Positions 4,550 to 46,256 of a DNA stretch of 64,000 nucleotides are shown here, piece by piece (positions within the stretch are counted from its first letter, which is position 1; each line of letters starts with the position of its first letter). Source of the DNA: a virus; IMG/VR virus record IMGVR_UViG_3300042308_001616, positions 184,752-248,751 of that record; one strand, 5' to 3'. The notes under the pieces were generated by a model. The model worked only from the letters and a program-made list of their open reading frames with translations. It did no database searches and was not told where the DNA came from. A program made the position numbers and the translations under genes.

Positions 4550-6016
4550 ATGAAGTTTAGATACGATCCAGATACCGAGGAAATAGTAGCATCAGATGCT
4601 ACCCGTATAGAGTACCACCAGATGCAGCTTTGGCTCACAAGACACGTAAAAGGATGGAAATTTCAACCTGCCGTTAAGATGGGTGTTTGGGACGGAAAGA
4701 AGTCTTACTTCAAAAACGGACGTATAAGTTTAGGTCTCTGGAGAGAAGCACTTTATGGATGTAGAGAGATTGAAGTACCATTCATAATAGAAAATAAAGA
4801 AGATTTTCCTATAAACCGTGATGTTACACCGGAAAAGGTTCAGGACTTCTGTAAAGAATTTTTCAAAGACCATAAAGTACGTACTAAAGATGGTCTATGG
4901 ATTCCATTTATGCCTTATGATCATCAGATAGAAGCAGCATACAGGATACTAAAGAATAGATATTGTATGGCAGAGGTTGCTACTTCTGGTGGTAAATCTC
5001 TAATCATTTCAATAGTTATGTTCTACACACTAAAGAATATAAAGGCCGATGCGAAATTTTTAATAATCGTTCCATCAATTACATTAGTTACTCAGTTCTA
5101 CGACAATATCGTAGAATATAATCTTGGTATAAACCGGATTGAAAAGATGAGACAGGAAAATACTGACGAAATTCCACCAGAGTGTTGTCAGGTAAGAGTA
5201 GAAGAAGTAATGTCAGAAAGACCTAGGAAATATTCTGGTACTGATAACGCCAATGTTTATATTGGAACATATCAATCACTTGAGAAGTGGCCTAAAGAGT
5301 TTTTTCATCAATTTCACACAGTTGCCACAGATGAAGCACATGGTGCAAAGGCTAAGACAATAACGACTATACTTGAACACACCTTTGGAAGAGCTTATTG
5401 TCGTTTTGGTGTATCGGGAACTTTTCCAGGTGACGACACATGCGAAATACTTACAATACAATCAGTATTGGGTCCTAAAATAACTGAGGTAAGTGCAGAT
5501 GAACTCAAAAAGAAGGGTATAATAACACCAATGGACATAAAGGTTGTTTTGATGAACCACGGTGATCCACATTTCTACGAACAGGTCAAATATATAAGAA
5601 AGCATGGTGACGGAAAATCAGCATTTGATTTTGAAAAGAAGTATGCACACCAGTCCGATAAACGACTCGCTTTCATTAGTAAGCTTGTTTCTAAGTGTGA
5701 AAATAACACACTACTACTTTTTCACACAATTGAGAATGGTCAGAGAATACTAAACAGATTACAATCTGATATAAAAGATAAAGAGTTCTTTTATATCGAT
5801 GGTGAAGTAAGTGGTAAAAAGAGAGAAGAGATAAAGAAGCAGATGGAGATAACCAAGACTAAAGTAGAATACACAATACTTAATTTTGGAGACTACGAAG
5901 TCGAGGTTAAGTCAGACTACCAGATATTACTTTCTGATGGTAGTTATAAATCTGCAAAAGACATAACAACCAATGATGATATAGATGATAACTTTATCAA
6001 AAAACTAAGAAAATAG
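4550..6016 (+). CDS. uvsW: UvsW-like DNA/RNA helicase, N-terminal part of a broken gene
   Basis: The first about 438 codons align from memory with T4 UvsW, a superfamily 2 helicase that unwinds branched DNA and R-loops in recombination and late replication. Visible motifs are ATSGGKS (Walker A, residues 144-150), DEAH (261-264), and GVSGTFPG (motif III). After YIDGEVSGKKREEIKKQ the frame leaves the helicase near codon KTK-V (5861-5866) and continues about 50 codons to a stop at 6016. That extension (ILLSDGSYKSAKDI) looks like part of a Hint/intein fold but has no Cys or Ser at its start. The missing motifs V and VI lie at 7082-7370, beyond an HNH gene. Confidence 0.85.
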   Translation: MKFRYDPDTEEIVASDATRIEYHQMQLWLTRHVKGWKFQPAVKMGVWDGKKSYFKNGRISLGLWREALYGCREIEVPFIIENKEDFPINRDVTPEKVQDFCKEFFKDHKVRTKDGLWIPFMPYDHQIEAAYRILKNRYCMAEVATSGGKSLIISIVMFYTLKNIKADAKFLIIVPSITLVTQFYDNIVEYNLGINRIEKMRQENTDEIPPECCQVRVEEVMSERPRKYSGTDNANVYIGTYQSLEKWPKEFFHQFHTVATDEAHGAKAKTITTILEHTFGRAYCRFGVSGTFPGDDTCEILTIQSVLGPKITEVSADELKKKGIITPMDIKVVLMNHGDPHFYEQVKYIRKHGDGKSAFDFEKKYAHQSDKRLAFISKLVSKCENNTLLLFHTIENGQRILNRLQSDIKDKEFFYIDGEVSGKKREEIKKQMEITKTKVEYTILNFGDYEVEVKSDYQILLSDGSYKSAKDITTNDDIDDNFIKKLRK

Positions 6017-6081: not shown

Positions 6082-7035
6082 ATGGATTATAACTTTATAA
6101 AATGTGAATTCGAATCTAAACACAATATAGACGATGTAAATCAACTTGATGAGTATATAAATTTCCTATTAGACTACAAACTAGATAAAACTGACGAGTA
6201 TACTGAAAAGCACCACATATTACCATACGCAACTTTTCCAGAATATAAAAACGAAAAATGGAACATTGTAGAACTAAAATATGAAGACCACAAACAAGCA
6301 CACCTTATATTATACAAATCAATAAACATAAGAGTATACCAAAGAACTTTGAATTTTATGTTACCACAATTCAAAAACAAAGATTTATTATCAAAAGCAA
6401 CCAAAATGGGGTGGATCAATCTAAAAAACAACAAAGATAAATACGAAAAATGGAGAAATGGTAGATCAAACCATATGAAGAGTTTGGGAAGTCAGGAGCA
6501 AAGAAGGAGAACCAATATATTCTGGGGAAACATAACCGAAGAACAATACACTATGTTTTCGAACAAAATGAAAGAATACTGGACAGAGGATAAAAGAATA
6601 GAAAAATCCAAACAGATGAACGAGTATTACTCCAATCCTGAAAATATAAACAAAAAAAGTATAGAGAGCCAGGAAAGATGGGACTCTATGACCAAAGAAG
6701 AACGTGAAAAATTCACAGTTAAGATGACGGCTATAAACAAAGACGAAGGTAAGAGACGAAAGGCCGGTGACAAAATAAAAAATCTTTGGAAGAGTGAAGA
6801 CTATTTGGAAAAAATGAAAAATAGACCTCACCGAAAGGGTACTATGTTGAAAATCATAAAACCTAACGGGGAAGAGATTGTTGTGGAATCAATGAACGTT
6901 TTCCAGAAAGAATACGATTTCTCTCTATATCTAATAAGAAAGTACAGAGATACCGGTACAGAGATACCAGAAATTGACTTGAAGAGTGATCTTTCACTAC
7001 TAAAATGTAAAATCGAAACAATAACCAATGGCTAG
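6082..7035 (+). CDS. HNH homing endonuclease inside uvsW
   Basis: A 317-residue protein. EKHHILPYATF (residues 42-52) and the later Asn and His (WNIVELKYEDHKQAH) fit an HNH nuclease. The middle has repeated helical DNA-binding-like units (SKQMNEYYSNPENINKKS, SIESQERWDSMTKEE). The C-terminus (EIVVESMNVFQKEYDFSLYLIRKY) resembles NUMOD1/IENR1 specificity repeats of intron-type endonucleases. It sits between the two uvsW parts and has its own AT-rich leader with AATATATAC about 16 nt before the ATG. Its end overlaps an ATG at 7028 that opens the helicase remainder. Homing into uvsW is inferred from position. Confidence 0.85.
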   Translation: MDYNFIKCEFESKHNIDDVNQLDEYINFLLDYKLDKTDEYTEKHHILPYATFPEYKNEKWNIVELKYEDHKQAHLILYKSINIRVYQRTLNFMLPQFKNKDLLSKATKMGWINLKNNKDKYEKWRNGRSNHMKSLGSQEQRRRTNIFWGNITEEQYTMFSNKMKEYWTEDKRIEKSKQMNEYYSNPENINKKSIESQERWDSMTKEEREKFTVKMTAINKDEGKRRKAGDKIKNLWKSEDYLEKMKNRPHRKGTMLKIIKPNGEEIVVESMNVFQKEYDFSLYLIRKYRDTGTEIPEIDLKSDLSLLKCKIETITNG

Positions 7036-41211: not shown

Positions 41212-41219
41212 TATATTTG
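41212..41219 (+). promoter_or_regulatory. Host-type -7 box (TATATTTG) of leader cassette 1
   Basis: TATATTTG fits the Bacteroidota TAnnTTTG -7 element; a clear TTTG at -33 is not seen. A related box TATATTTA stands at the same place in cassette 2 (about 45275-45282), and both are followed by AACTTTATATATA just before the leader ATG. Confidence 0.6.
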
Positions 41220-41267
41220 TCTTATAAAACAAAAAGGGAAGTAAAAAACTTTATATATACACTTACA

Positions 41268-41378
41268 ATGAAAGCAACAAATACAAATATGACAATCGTG
41301 AGAAACTTAATGGTGAATATTACATTATGTAATATTAGACCAAACGAGGGTTCCTGTCTATTTGTGAATGTCGCATAA
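41268..41378 (+). CDS. Leader peptide 1 (36 residues), matches downstream tRNA set
   Basis: ATG 41268 to TAA 41378. Codons 4-24 use only Thr(ACA), Asn(AAT/AAC), Met(ATG), Ile(ATC/ATT), Val(GTG), Arg(AGA), Leu(TTA) and Cys(TGT). Each is read by a tRNA encoded just downstream: Thr(TGT), Asn(GTT), CAT, Ile(GAT), Val(TAC), Arg(TCT), Leu(TAA), Cys(GCA). Codons 27-29 hold GAGGGTTC (41346-41353), complementary to GAACCCTC (41400-41407) in the 5' arm of the terminator that follows. This is the layout of a transcription attenuator. Expression and function are inferred; the codon match and the complementarity are seen directly. Confidence 0.75.
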   Translation: MKATNTNMTIVRNLMVNITLCNIRPNEGSCLFVNVA

Positions 41379-41399
41379 ACATTTATATAAAAGAAACTT

Positions 41400-41430
41400 G
41401 AACCCTCAGTCAAAAACTGAGGGTTTTTTG
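41400..41430 (+). terminator. Attenuator terminator 1
   Basis: AACCCTCAGT/ACTGAGGGTT with loop CAAAA and a TTTT tract, 17 nt before the first tRNA-Asn. Its 5' arm can pair instead with GAGGGTTC inside leader ORF 1, which would block termination. Confidence 0.88.
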
Positions 41431-41446
41431 TTTAACATAAAAATAC

Positions 41447-41518
41447 GGACGGGTAGCTCAGAGGCAGAGCAAAATCCTGTTAAGATTGAGGTCGAGATAT
41501 CGTAATTCTCCCCGTCCG
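41447..41518 (+). tRNA. tRNA-Asn(GTT), copy 1, with altered T-loop
   Basis: Acceptor GGACGGG/CCCGTCC, discriminator G, anticodon loop CTGTTAA. The T-loop is ATCGTAA instead of TTCGAAT, so T54-A58 is replaced by A54-T58, and the T-stem has a T-T mismatch at its end. First tRNA after attenuator 1. Confidence 0.85.
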
Positions 41519-41530
41519 CAAAAATAAAAT

Positions 41531-41618
41531 GGACTTGTAGCTGATAAGGTTTAGCTGGTGACTGTTAATCACTGAATGAAAAATTGAAATAAAGTAGGTT
41601 CGAATCCTACCTGGTCCG
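41531..41618 (+). tRNA. tRNA-Asn(GTT), copy 2, with long variable region
   Basis: Acceptor GGACTTG/CTGGTCC (one mismatch, one wobble), discriminator G, anticodon loop CTGTTAA, normal T-arm TAGGTTCGAATCCTA. The variable region is about 20 nt, far longer than in normal Asn tRNA, and shows no clear stem. It may be an odd functional tRNA or a decaying copy. Confidence 0.75.
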
Positions 41619-41625
41619 CAAAAAT

Positions 41626-41698
41626 GGTTCTATGATGTAACTGAATAGCATAAGCCCCTTCTAAGGGTTTCGTTGGGGTTTGAATCCCTGTAGAACTA
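41626..41698 (+). tRNA. tRNA-Arg(TCT), copy 1
   Basis: Acceptor GGTTCTA/TAGAACT, discriminator A, anticodon loop CTTCTAA. Reads AGA, the main Arg codon of this AT-rich genome. Confidence 0.88.
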
Positions 41699-41704
41699 CA
41701 AAAT

Positions 41705-41777
41705 AGTTGATTAGCTCAATTGGTAGAGCACCGATCTGATACGTCGGAGGTAGTGGGATCGTAACCCGCATCAACTA
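41705..41777 (+). tRNA. tRNA-Ile(GAT) with altered T-loop
   Basis: Acceptor AGTTGAT/ATCAACT, discriminator A, anticodon loop CTGATAC. T-arm GTGGG-ATCGTAA-CCCGC, again A54 and T58. Confidence 0.9.
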
Positions 41778-41787
41778 CTAAAAAAAT

Positions 41788-41858
41788 GCTTCCTTCGTAT
41801 AGAGGTATTATTCTGGATTTGTAACCCAGTGACGCCAGTTCGATCCTGGCAGGAAGCT
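41788..41858 (+). tRNA. tRNA-Thr(TGT)
   Basis: Acceptor GCTTCCT/AGGAAGC, discriminator T, anticodon loop TTTGTAA, T-arm GCCAG-TTCGATC-CTGGC. The last anticodon-stem pair is A-C. Confidence 0.87.
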
Positions 41859-41865
41859 CGAAAAT

Positions 41866-41937
41866 GTTAGTGTGTCCGAATGGCTTAGGTAACCAGCTGC
41901 AACCTGGTATATGGGGGTTCAAGTCCCTCCACTAACT
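41866..41937 (+). tRNA. tRNA-Cys(GCA)
   Basis: Acceptor GTTAGTG/CACTAAC, discriminator T, anticodon stem-loop ACCAG-CTGCAAC-CTGGT. Confidence 0.93.
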
Positions 41938-41946
41938 CAAACAAAC

Positions 41947-42016
41947 GCCGCGGCTTAGTGGAAAAGGATCGACCCTCATATGGTTGATTAAGTGGTTTCG
42001 AACACCATACGCGGTA
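41947..42016 (+). tRNA. tRNA with CAT anticodon (Met or Ile2)
   Basis: Acceptor GCCGCGG/ACGCGGT with a G-A pair at its base, anticodon loop CTCATAT. It lacks the three G-C pairs of an initiator. Because another CAT tRNA at 45128 looks like elongator Met, this may be Ile2 (lysidine, ATA); the leader 1 codons ATG fit Met. Not resolved. Confidence 0.8.
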
Positions 42017-42038
42017 CTAACTAAAAAAAATAAAAAAT

Positions 42039-42197
42039 ATGAAATTCGAAGACTACTTCAAAAGCAAGTTTCCTTTCCTGAAAGAAAGCAAGGAAAGCCA
42101 CACAATCGACATCGATTCAGACACACTCATATACCTGGTACAGGACTTCATCGACGGGGAAAGAAGCAGAGAAGACCAATCGAAGGCATTCGAGTAA
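42039..42197 (+). CDS. Small acidic protein inside the tRNA operon (52 residues)
   Basis: ATG 42039 to TAA 42197 gives MKFEDYFKSKFPFLKE, then DIDSDTLIYLVQDFIDGE and a charged end. It starts after an A-rich leader and stops 8 nt before tRNA-Val. Its amphipathic pattern looks real. The opening MKFEDYF slightly resembles the genome's N-terminal tag. Function unknown. Confidence 0.7.
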   Translation: MKFEDYFKSKFPFLKESKESHTIDIDSDTLIYLVQDFIDGERSREDQSKAFE

Positions 42198-42204
42198 AAG
42201 AAAC

Positions 42205-42277
42205 AGGGGATTAGCTCAATCGGGAGAGCGTTAGACTTACATTCTAAAGGTAGCGGGATCGTAACCCGCATTCCCTA
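42205..42277 (+). tRNA. tRNA-Val(TAC) with altered T-loop
   Basis: Acceptor AGGGGAT/ATTCCCT, discriminator A, anticodon stem-loop TTAGA-CTTACAT-TCTAA, T-arm GCGGG-ATCGTAA-CCCGC with A54 and T58. Confidence 0.92.
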
Positions 42278-42281
42278 CTAG

Positions 42282-42366
42282 GCACCAGTGGTGAAACTGG
42301 AGATACACGCTGCGCTTAAACCGCAGTCCTAAATACGGGTTGAGGGTTCGAGTCCCTCCTGGTGCA
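42282..42366 (+). tRNA. tRNA-Leu(TAA)
   Basis: Acceptor GCACCAG/CTGGTGC, discriminator A, anticodon stem-loop CTGCG-CTTAAAC-CGCAG, long variable arm as expected for leucine. Confidence 0.94.
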
Positions 42367-42400
42367 CAAAAAAAATAGAACAAAAAAAAATAGAAAACAC

Positions 42401-42430
42401 TTTGATATCAAAAATAAATACCTATCTTTG
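42401..42430 (+). promoter_or_regulatory. Host-type promoter TTTG-N18-TATCTTTG
   Basis: TTTG at 42401-42404 and TATCTTTG at 42423-42430 match the Bacteroidota -33/-7 consensus. It precedes the structured spacer and tRNA-Leu(TAG), so the tRNA cluster has internal promoters. Confidence 0.7.
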
Positions 42431-42859: not shown

Positions 42860-42932
42860 AAGTAGAGAGAACCAGTAGCACGCGGCTCGGTCCAGTATCA
42901 GTCATAATGCTAGAATACGTCATACTCTACTT
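42860..42932 (+). ncRNA. Structured 73-nt spacer RNA between tRNA genes
   Basis: AAGTAGAG (42860-42867) pairs perfectly with CTCTACTT (42925-42932), an acceptor-like end stem enclosing 57 nt without a clear anticodon or T-arm. It is of tRNA size and may be a tRNA remnant or a tRNA-like small RNA. Confidence 0.45.
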
Positions 42933-42935
42933 AAC

Positions 42936-43008
42936 GGAGGTGAGGTCAAACGGTTAAGATGTCTGCCTGTCACGCAGTTCGGAGCGGGTTCAACTCCCGT
43001 CACTTCCG
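42936..43008 (+). tRNA. tRNA-Asp(GTC), copy 1
   Basis: Acceptor GGAGGTG/CACTTCC (G4-T69 wobble), discriminator G, anticodon loop CTGTCAC. Nearly identical to the gene at 46176. Confidence 0.92.
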
Positions 43009-43015
43009 CGCTAGC

Positions 43016-43377: not shown

Positions 43378-43408
43378 TTTGGTGAAACAAAAAGAATCAC
43401 TAACTTTG
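43378..43408 (+). promoter_or_regulatory. Host-type promoter TTTG-N19-TAACTTTG
   Basis: TTTG at 43378-43381 and TAACTTTG at 43401-43408, ahead of tRNA-Arg(CCT). Confidence 0.7.
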
Positions 43409-43452
43409 TAAAACAAAAGAGATCTTTGACATAATAACAAAATAACAAAAAC

Positions 43453-43535: not shown

Positions 43536-43567
43536 TTTGGTAGATTCAAAAACTATACTTATCTTTG
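43536..43567 (+). promoter_or_regulatory. Host-type promoter TTTG-N20-TATCTTTG
   Basis: TTTG at 43536-43539 and TATCTTTG at 43560-43567, ahead of tRNA-Leu(GAG). Confidence 0.72.
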
Positions 43568-43594
43568 AAAACAAAACGTTCATTGAATAAAAAA

Positions 43595-43676: not shown

Positions 43677-43681
43677 CAAAA

Positions 43682-43714
43682 GAATGCTCAGGCAACCCCC
43701 TGGTAAAAGCATTC
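43682..43714 (+). repeat. Repeated hairpin element, copy 1
   Basis: GAATGCT...AGCATTC encloses CAGGCAACCCCCTGG. The same core recurs at 43804-43821 and, with the full outer stem, at 43828-43861; a variant (CCAGACAACCCTCTGG) is at 44795. Confidence 0.8.
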
Positions 43715-43724
43715 GAAAATATAT

Positions 43725-43796
43725 TGCGGGATGGGGGAGTGGTCACCCCGCTGGGCTCATAACCCAGAGACATTGGTTCGAATCCTTTTCCCGCTA
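43725..43796 (+). tRNA. Initiator tRNA-fMet(CAT)
   Basis: The anticodon stem-loop is CTGGG-CTCATAA-CCCAG with the three G-C pairs next to the loop that mark bacterial initiators. The first position T43725 faces T43795 (position 72), leaving the 1-72 pair open, another initiator mark; discriminator A. The T-stem is weak (two T-T pairs). Confidence 0.82.
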
Positions 43797-43803
43797 CAAA
43801 AAT

Positions 43804-43861
43804 CCAGGCAACCCCCTGGTAGAAACAGAATGCTCAGGCAACCCCCTGGTAAAAAGCATTC
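43804..43861 (+). repeat. Repeated hairpin element, copies 2 and 3
   Basis: CCAGGCAACCCCCTGGTA at 43804-43821, then the full element GAATGCT...AGCATTC at 43828-43861 with the same core. Together with copy 1 they flank the initiator tRNA. Confidence 0.8.
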
Positions 43862-44632: not shown

Positions 44633-44885
44633 CAAAGCTCAGGACTAATTACCCTGTAGCCTGGATGGTTCGAAACATCCGATTTGATATGGTGTACTGG
44701 GCACGACACCCGCCGCTGAGGTTCGAATCCTCAGGTTCGGAATGGTTACCACGGGAGTAAGATTGGGTTCGATCCCCTTTATCACACCAAAAGACCAGAC
44801 AACCCTCTGGCAGCAACGCTAACACAGCACAATGCGGGCTCATACCTGCGGCGTAGTGTGACGGTCAGGAGAGACTGACAACTTT
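44633..44885 (+). other. tRNA remnants and hairpins, no intact gene
   Basis: Three T-arm-like hairpins (GGATG-GTTCGAAA-CATCC; TGAGG-TTCGAAT-CCTCA at about 44718-44734; GGG-TTCGATC-CCC at about 44765) lie close together without full cloverleaves. The second could be the anticodon arm of a Ser(CGA)-like RNA, bounded by TGGTGT and ACACCA, but the fit is poor. Later there is a CAT loop in TGCGGGCTCATACCTGCG, a copy of the repeated hairpin core and a GTCAG...CTGAC hairpin. Confidence 0.5.
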
Positions 44886-45240: not shown

Positions 45241-45323
45241 ATTTAAGTGAGAATTAGGATAAATATCAAAAAAATGTCTATATTTACAAAACAAAGAGTA
45301 ACAAACTTTATATATAACTAATA

Positions 45324-45422
45324 ATGAAAACTTTTAACACAAATATCGCAGTATTAAACATCCCGCAGGATCAGGATCAACCTAAGTTACTTGGGACTAA
45401 CTGTATATTGTCAAAAAGTTAA
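45324..45422 (+). CDS. Leader peptide 2 (32 residues), matches downstream tRNA set
   Basis: ATG 45324 to TAA 45422. Codons 14-20 read P-Q-D-Q-D-Q-P (CCG CAG GAT CAG GAT CAA CCT), and the next tRNAs are Gln(TTG), Asp(GTC) and Pro(TGG). Codons 25-27 hold ACTAACTG (45396-45403), complementary to CAGTTAGT (45446-45453) in the 5' arm of the following terminator. The leader before the ATG (AAACTTTATATATAAC) is nearly the same as in cassette 1, and both peptides start MK-x-x-NTN or similar. It is inferred to act as a ribosome-sensing attenuator. Confidence 0.78.
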   Translation: MKTFNTNIAVLNIPQDQDQPKLLGTNCILSKS

Positions 45423-45440: not shown

Positions 45441-45474
45441 AAACCCAGTTAGTAACTACTAACTGGGTTTTTTC
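45441..45474 (+). terminator. Attenuator terminator 2
   Basis: AAACCCAGTTAGT/ACTAACTGGGTTT, a perfect 13-bp stem with a 4-nt loop and a T-tract, 11 nt before tRNA-Gln. Its 5' arm can pair with ACTAACTG inside leader ORF 2. Confidence 0.93.
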
Positions 45475-45484
45475 GTTTATATAA

Positions 45485-45557
45485 TGTCCCGTGGTGTAAT
45501 TGGCAACACGTCTGATTTTGGTTCAGAAGAGTCCAGGTTCGACCCCTGGCGGGACAA
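45485..45557 (+). tRNA. tRNA-Gln(TTG)
   Basis: Acceptor TGTCCCG/CGGGACA, discriminator A, anticodon stem-loop TCTGA-TTTTGGT-TCAGA. First tRNA after attenuator 2. Confidence 0.93.
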
Positions 45558-45570
45558 CAAAAAAGTTATT

Positions 45571-45642
45571 GGTTCTGTCGTCCAATGGTAGGATAGCCCG
45601 TTGTCTGCGGGATGGTTGCGGGTTCGAGTCCCGTCAGAACCG
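45571..45642 (+). tRNA. tRNA-Asp(GTC), distinct type
   Basis: Acceptor GGTTCTG/CAGAACC, discriminator G, anticodon loop TTGTCTG, T-arm TGCGG-GTTCGAG-CCGT region normal. It differs strongly from the Asp genes at 42936 and 46176. Confidence 0.88.
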
Positions 45643-45653
45643 CTAAAATATAA

Positions 45654-45726
45654 CTAGGTGTAGCTCAGATGGTAGAGCGGGGAGTTTGGGACTCTCAGGC
45701 CGCAGGTTCGACCCCTGTCACTTAGA
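45654..45726 (+). tRNA. tRNA-Pro(TGG)
   Basis: Acceptor CTAGGTG/CACTTAG, discriminator A, anticodon loop TTTGGGA. Confidence 0.92.
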
Positions 45727-45732
45727 CAAAAA

Positions 45733-46169
45733 CGAGTAGTAGAGGAGTGGTTTATCTCGGTTTTTTTTAATATAATAAAATATATTTAATATATAATAAA
45801 AATAAAAAATTGTAATATGAAGAATATTAAAACATTTGGTAGTTTCATAAATGAAAGTGATGAAAATATTGATGACTATGAAATTACAACAAACAATGAA
45901 ATAGAAGGAAGGCCTTGTGTAGATTTCAATCCAACAGAATTACATCCAAATGATATAATTTATAGAAAATTAGTTGATGTTGTCAATTATCGTTCAAATT
46001 GGTATAAACATAAGAATAACATACCTAATATTGATGATTTATCTAGCTATTCTAAACCAGAAGGATTTAAAGTCATTTCAAATGATGGTAAAATTCTTAA
46101 ATTAGAGGATAAAGGCTTTATTAATAAAGTGTAAGCATCAGCACGTGAGTTCGATTCCCACCTTCTCGA
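45733..46169 (+). pseudogene. tRNA apparently split by a tagged protein gene
   Basis: CGAGTAG at 45733-45739 followed by AGAGGAGTGGTTTATCTC looks like the 5' part of a type II tRNA. About 400 nt later CACGTGAGTTCGATTCCCAC and CTTCTCG-A (46162-46169) look like a T-arm and 3' acceptor strand; six of seven acceptor pairs fit the 5' part. The gene at 45817-46134 lies between. The anticodon cannot be recognised. Confidence 0.5.
45817..46134 (+). CDS. Tagged small protein lying between two tRNA fragments
   Basis: A 105-residue protein with the clear tag MKNIKTFGSFINESDE. The rest is acidic and not recognised (GRPCVDFNPTELHPNDIIYRK in part). It has an AT-rich leader with TATATTTAATATATAATA and stands between the halves of a broken tRNA, so it looks like a late insertion that carries its own late-type promoter. 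Confidence 0.8.
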   Translation: MKNIKTFGSFINESDENIDDYEITTNNEIEGRPCVDFNPTELHPNDIIYRKLVDVVNYRSNWYKHKNNIPNIDDLSSYSKPEGFKVISNDGKILKLEDKGFINKV

Positions 46170-46175
46170 CAATAC

Positions 46176-46248
46176 GGATGTGAGGTCAAACGGTTAAGAT
46201 GTCTGCCTGTCACGCAGTTCGGAGCGGGTTCAACTCCCGTCACGTCCG
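46176..46248 (+). tRNA. tRNA-Asp(GTC), copy 2
   Basis: Differs from the gene at 42936 in the acceptor stem: GGATGTG/CACGTCC in place of GGAGGTG/CACTTCC. The pair 4-69 changes from G-T to T-G, a paired change that keeps the stem. Last tRNA of the cluster. Confidence 0.93.
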
Positions 46249-46256
46249 CTAATAGA

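Follow-up and report, generated by a model that had tools for sequence, protein, structure and literature searches.

We found that short leader peptide genes, each followed by an intrinsic terminator and a run of tRNA genes, most likely act in phages as ribosome-mediated transcription attenuators, each sensing the capacity to decode codons for its own operon's amino acids. The evidence is comparative and thermodynamic, and includes no experiment. The anatomy of the leaders, the matching of their codons to the downstream tRNAs with its dependence on frame and position, the predicted mutually exclusive structures and the recurrence of the design in unrelated phages are shown. The window, that is the whole stretch of 64,000 nucleotides analysed here, is part of a 248,751-base IMG/VR record in which NAMPT, terminase and helicase genes are found, and it contains two such leaders. 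The features of the first are as follows.

41212..41219, plus strand: -7 element (TATATTTG, Bacteroidetes-type TAnnTTTG), probable promoter of leader 1; such elements are conserved upstream of most related leaders.
41268..41378, plus strand: ORF of leader peptide 1, 36 codons, MKATNTNMTIVRNLMVNITLCNIRPNEGSCLFVNVA (by translation; homologous leaders in LR745206, LR756502 and IMG/VR phages).
41277..41339, plus strand: control codons 4-24 of leader 1, each readable by the tRNAs of operon 1.
41346..41353, plus strand: segment 2 of leader 1 (GAGGGTTC), the antiterminator strand predicted to pair with the terminator 5′ arm (8-bp pairing, fold z -5.2, duplex prediction and ribosome-position profile).
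41400..41430, plus strand: intrinsic terminator 1, formed by segments 3 and 4 and a T tract (11-bp stem, -16 kcal/mol, z -4.3).
41447..42367, plus strand: tRNA operon 1, with Asn, Asn, Arg(tct), Ile(gat), Thr(tgt), Cys(gca), a CAT candidate, Val(tac) and Leu(taa) (ARAGORN and Rfam; CAT by fold only).
42039-42197: a 52-aa ORF inside tRNA operon 1.

All 21 of codons 4-24 are read by Asn(gtt), Arg(tct), Ile(gat), Thr(tgt), Cys(gca), Val(tac), Leu(taa) or the CAT tRNA, and all eight amino acids of the operon are represented. The per-codon chance of readability was 0.31, and none of the 14,217 21-codon windows in the long ORFs of this phage reached the same score (maximum 16). The ORF, the terminator, the tRNAs, the 21 matching codons and the eight amino acids had been proposed in an initial annotation made from the sequence alone, and all of them held; its start coordinate, 41212, coincides with the probable -7 element. 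The antiterminator segment that it proposed also held, its position being corrected to 41346-41353. Its CAT tRNA (about 41945-42021) held only in part: neither ARAGORN nor Rfam at E<=1 called it, and support comes from a partial fold in which the acceptor, anticodon and T arms are present and the D arm is absent. Its claim that leader 1 encodes exactly the amino acids of the operon holds if the operon ends before a promoter at about 42401. Such an end is an inference from the position of that promoter; no terminator was seen downstream of operon 1 before 45212, and the intervening tRNAs include Asp, Tyr, Ala and Trp, which are amino acids missing from leader 1.

Further Bacteroidetes-type promoters (TTTG...TAnnTTTG) lie within the array at 42401-42430, 43380-43415 and 43540-43570 of the window. 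The tRNAs behind them are leaderless, and leader control therefore does not cover every tRNA. A short motif, AGGCAACCCCCTGGTA (hairpin CCAGG...CCTGG), is repeated in the spacers of the tRNA array at 43678-43854 and 44795-44811. Elsewhere in the window, a helicase ORF at 4550-6016 has an intein-like stretch at its end and is followed by an ORF at 6082-7035, maybe an endonuclease; the helicase gene could be split or interrupted.

The second leader has the same organisation.

45279..45286, plus strand: -7 element (TATATTTA), possible weak promoter of leader 2, one base off the TAnnTTTG consensus.
45324..45422, plus strand: ORF of leader peptide 2, MKTFNTNIAVLNIPQDQDQPKLLGTNCILSKS, with a 5′ UTR common to leader 1 (repeat family D16).
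45363..45383, plus strand: control codons 14-20 of leader 2, Pro Gln Asp Gln Asp Gln Pro (PQDQDQP), identified by codon match.
45396..45403, plus strand: segment 2 of leader 2 (ACTAACTG), antiterminator strand by fold and duplex predictions.
45441..45476, plus strand: intrinsic terminator 2 (13-bp stem, -17.8 kcal/mol, z -5.7).
45485..45727, plus strand: tRNA operon 2, with Gln(ttg), Asp(gtc) and Pro(tgg) (ARAGORN).
46176-46249: an extra tRNA-Asp behind an ORF after operon 2 (ARAGORN).

The seven codons 14-20 are all readable by the three downstream tRNAs, a result matched by 0 of 14,791 7-codon windows in long ORFs. Two tRNA-Asp genes of the window, one of them downstream of leader 2, have flanks that are 93% identical (42925-43009 versus 46165-46249). 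We infer a recent duplication, solely from this sequence identity.

Leaders homologous to those of the window were detected by blastn in the huge phages LR745206 and LR756502 (hereafter W01 and W02), which were compared together with nine further relatives (G001-G009); several of the contigs are fragments. In these relatives the tRNA genes are partitioned into operons, each under its own leader and terminator, with up to seven leader types.

T1, TNMMNLTLNVVNITLCNIR: precedes Asn, Arg, Leu, Val, Ile, Thr, Cys and Met.
T2, HKHFSKSSKWFS: precedes Lys, His, Phe and Trp.
T3, SSSRSSS: precedes Arg(acg) and Ser.
T4, YYYEAE: precedes Tyr and Glu.
T5, ISIAIIAGGAG: precedes Ile(tat), Gly and Ala.
T6, NPQPQDQD: precedes Gln, Pro and Asp.
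T7, QQQQQ: precedes Gln only.

We counted 50 distinct leaders in the related huge phages, and more in other groups. Each has its own start and stop, translation not being shown, and most have a promoter ahead, with the -7 element conserved 24-67 nt upstream in the related phages. In W01, 52 of the 61 tRNA matches sit behind seven leaders. Two phages have an intermediate leader type holding both sets, as in L172, where EARGYEAYEAGY stands ahead of Tyr, Gly, Ala, Gly, Ala. When leader codons were scored against the anticodons present in an operon, tabulating leader types against operon types gave an essentially diagonal matrix, and the true assignment came out ahead of all other permutations (rank 1 of 5,040; sum z 32.1, against a mean of 1.0 and a runner-up of 25.9). 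Types were taken as units because the members of a type are homologous and counts within it are not independent. The T5 match is weak in some phages, and the excess of third-position substitutions within types (260 versus 124 and 179) is by itself weak evidence. Inspection by eye of L003, a 735-kb phage, showed tRNAs and no leader. No reference phage was found with a leader copy apart from the two GenBank metagenomic genomes W01 and W02, and a terminase-based search for relatives returned one near-identical contig only.

These comparisons bear on two rival explanations. Chance or AT-rich compositional bias is all but excluded: leader 1 by itself does use AT-rich codons, but no genomic window equalled its run, seven types of differing composition each match their own operon, and PQDQDQP, QQQQQ and the GC-containing GGAG runs are not AT bias. 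It is also very unlikely that the small ORFs encode functional peptides, for instance binding tRNA or the ribosome, with terminators that merely insulate the operons. The peptides are indeed conserved within each type among related phages, but across types and groups there is no common sequence, only a tRNA-matched composition, and the C-terminal part tracks the antiterminator pairing instead.

Matching depended on both frame and position: 53% of codons matched upstream of the predicted ribosome release point and 16% downstream of it, with 12% and 11% in the other two frames. A direct, T-box-like codon-anticodon binding of tRNA to the leader RNA, without translation, would account for leader codons that mirror the anticodons encoded downstream. 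It is nevertheless very unlikely, since matching is confined to tandem codons in the ATG-started frame, upstream of the release point, and Rfam at E<=1 identified no T-box or known leader RNA at either window leader. T-box riboswitches resemble the proposed system in coupling tRNA status to transcription termination. They differ in binding tRNA directly without translation and in targeting synthetase and amino-acid genes, not tRNA genes; the T-box criterion, a Stem I with specifier loop and the conserved T-box, is not met at the window leaders (Rfam, E<=1).

The choice of codons also followed the isoacceptors. Before tRNA-Ile(tat), T5 uses ATA for 14 of its 16 Ile codons; before tRNA-Ile(gat), T1 uses ATT or ATC in 20/20 cases and ATA in none. 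This contrast is owed partly to shared descent because the codon-7 ATA also occurs in related T4 leaders. Arg is encoded by AGA in T1 (tct) and mostly by CGC or CGT in T3 (acg). Two observations count against the matching: the T1 leader retains the Cys codon TGT where no tRNA-Cys was detected (W01, W02, G008, G009 and G002), and many Ser codons in T2 and T3 are AGY, which the operon's tRNA-Ser(tga) cannot read. The latter would fit a rival in which the attenuator is the same and its natural signal is amino-acid starvation, sensed as uncharged tRNA, tying the phage tRNA supply to nutrition rather than to tRNA loss. Classical attenuation of the trp and his type reads aminoacyl-tRNA and is blind to whether tRNA or its charging has been lost, which also favours this rival. 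We consider it unlikely, since the output is tRNA genes, which are no cure for amino-acid starvation, and since isoacceptor-specific codons such as ATA before Ile(tat), and the leaders covering all 20 amino acids described below, better fit tRNA supply.

The specificity of the sensor of tRNA supply that we favour was further evaluated with a search pattern made of segment 2 and the terminator (GAGGGTT...AACCCTC...GAGGGTTTTTT), which is blind to codons and tRNAs. In IMG/VR it retrieved 39 loci: 32 are followed by tRNA genes, and in another four a similar leader lies at the end of its contig. Applied to 84,980 genomes of bacteria and archaea, the same pattern gave 31 loci, 0/31 having a tRNA in the following 1 kb, and this genome scan revealed no bacterial tRNA array with such a leader. 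A permuted motif in viruses preceded tRNAs in 0/10 cases. A degenerate antiterminator pattern, GNGGGYT, brought little gain; GTGGGTT and GGGGCTT, with tRNAs at 0/10 and 2/43 loci, were of value mainly as controls. Four loci in Marinicaulis MAGs (L231, L242, L248 and L251) have a conserved leader ORF (e.g. MKPAVTKSQIQTRNAALQNMQPEKLRALDYDRRQPEGFVIRR) and the same antiterminator-terminator layout without downstream tRNA, probably an unrelated bacterial attenuator.

The same design is found in other phage groups, which use sigma-70-like promoters and have few proteins or none in common. In G012, the leader MNLTSASSLVWTNGLQNPGNDLCSEGYGNG precedes Asn, Trp, Ser, Ala, Val, Asp, Gly, Thr, Leu, Gln and Pro, and 24 of its 29 codons are readable by its own cluster and 2/29 by the other; a second leader, MKLAYEHKFMIRSIEKCREYRYGVSEGSAV, precedes Cys, Met, Glu, Phe, Lys, Ile, His and Arg (17/29 own, 10/29 other). 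G010 carries MTYFICKFEEYMTWEGSRD and MTSLHVSSLSAQWTQDNNPGRQVLIGRGSGLF, the second with 26/31 codons readable by its own cluster and 1/31 by the other, and G016 resembles these two phages in having two leaders that divide the amino acids. In a third group, near-complete tRNA sets follow a single leader of ~40 codons in which 19 amino acids or the full 20 occur; the chance of finding 20/20 in one such leader is about 0.003. A further scan yielded more leaders, among them MTHNTKHMISIKRFERHEYLFGFSEGYSG, which precedes Ile, Glu, Tyr, Phe, Arg, His, Lys, Asn and Thr. By blastn and tblastn, no recognisable copy of the leaders of these groups was found in reference phages; the sole match, E. coli phage Bas87, shares the terminator alone and has no tRNA nearby. 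Within the tRNA clusters of G010 (L195:15035) and G015 (L202:11235), ARAGORN reported a tRNA whose anticodon is CTA and which it labels Pyl; this tRNA might be an amber suppressor, TAG maybe being read as sense there.

Folding with the ribosome placed codon by codon predicted, for 58/58 leaders including eight from the other phage groups, that the terminator 5′ arm is sequestered when the ribosome is at the control codons and free later. Type means of sequestration were 0.6-0.86 for an early stalled ribosome and 0.06-0.18 at the stop codon, with 0.26-0.51 for shuffled sequences. Taken singly, only 39/58 leaders exceeded their shuffles at p<0.05 because shuffled AT-rich RNA pairs too. The predicted release coincides with the end of the control region in every type, the assignment of leader tails to their own terminators gives the best pairing (rank 1 of 5,040), and the two antiterminators of the window fold as 8-bp helices. 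The mechanism requires an intrinsic terminator and an antiterminator that cannot coexist with it and becomes available when the ribosome stalls; at the level of thermodynamic prediction, the leaders fulfil this. Without a ribosome, six T1 leaders also folded with the terminator arm sequestered (0.76-0.95), and the modelled default may therefore be read-through, unlike trp; these folds predict that a general failure of translation would also turn the tRNAs on. No 1:2 protector hairpin was demonstrated.

Some of the attenuators may be arranged in series, a possibility that we only infer. T3, T5 and T7 often lie behind the operon of T2, T4 and T6, about half of them without a promoter-like element between, and where no promoter intervenes the outer leaders include residues that belong to the inner operon's set (Ser and Arg in T2, Gln in T6).

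In the proposed mechanism, RNA polymerase would start at the promoter just 5′ of the leader, which a ribosome would translate. If the needed aminoacyl-tRNAs were all plentiful, the ribosome would cross the control codons and segment 2, the terminator 5′ arm would be freed and transcription would halt ahead of the tRNA genes. If any needed tRNA were scarce or uncharged, the ribosome would wait in the control codons, segment 2 would pair with the terminator 5′ arm and the entire tRNA operon would be transcribed. The loop would be closed, poor decoding of a codon yielding more of the tRNA that reads it, and large phages would obtain replacement tRNAs on demand through several leaders that split the genetic code or one that covers all of it. 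There are no RNA or protein data: transcription, translation, stalling, read-through and the response to tRNA shortage are inferred. The trigger, by inference too, is probably the loss of host tRNAs in infection through host shut-off or tRNA-cleaving defences.

Ribosome-mediated attenuation controls amino-acid operons (trp, his, leu, ilv and thr) and pheST. The phage leaders share with these systems a short leader ORF with cognate codons, an intrinsic terminator before the structural genes and an antiterminator competing for the terminator 5′ arm. However, they regulate viral tRNAs, and the structural genes do not make, import or charge an amino acid; each senses 1-3, 8 or all 20 amino acids; the code is divided among several leaders in one genome, some apparently in series; and the leader ORF itself contains the antiterminator strand, without a protector hairpin having been shown. 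Phage tRNAs have been found to replace host tRNAs destroyed in infection, rescuing it from tRNA-cleaving defences (eLife 2023 PMC10264068; Nat Commun 2024 PMC11555353); the latter describes a strong phage tRNA promoter and not feedback, and we found no attenuator or leader peptide in either paper. Huge phages encode up to 67 tRNAs per genome, and the Mahaphage clade exceeds 634 kb with predicted Bacteroidetes hosts (Nature 2020 PMC7162821); attenuation and leader peptides are unmentioned in that study. Nothing on attenuation of phage tRNA genes was found in the open-access literature searched, subscription papers such as Goldfarb and Daniel 1980 (transcription control of the T4 tRNA operon) being outside its scope. 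Within the same limits, nothing contradicted the initial annotation's remark that it knew of no such phage system. The check that it had suggested, whether leader codons in relatives track the downstream tRNAs, was run, and they do. Its attenuation reading is supported by the type-operon matching, the other phage groups and the folding; that the leaders are transcribed, translated and responsive to tRNA shortage remains inferred. The trp/his-type mechanism is known; what is likely new, pending any experiment, is leader-peptide attenuation aimed at phage tRNA genes as a sensor of tRNA shortage.

The reason for the dozens of tRNA genes in phages has been a matter of debate for 50 years, and the control of these genes is poorly understood. 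The leaders constitute a readable record, amino acid by amino acid, of what the phage monitors, and as natural multi-amino-acid tRNA sensors they would add viral non-coding RNA genes to the targets of leader-peptide attenuation. By implication, phage tRNAs would be produced on demand upon decoding failure, and the hypothesis that these tRNAs replace lost ones becomes directly testable. On a bolder reading, which we find as easy to doubt as to accept, several lineages of large phages split the genetic code among leader-controlled tRNA operons as a codon-resolved alarm: a defence that destroys tRNAs would stall the ribosome in the matching leader and call up the exact replacement tRNAs, and nested leaders (Pro/Gln/Asp, then Gln only) would refine the response. 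The design looks widespread, occurring in many unrelated uncultivated phages in which differing amino acids are paired with differing tRNAs.
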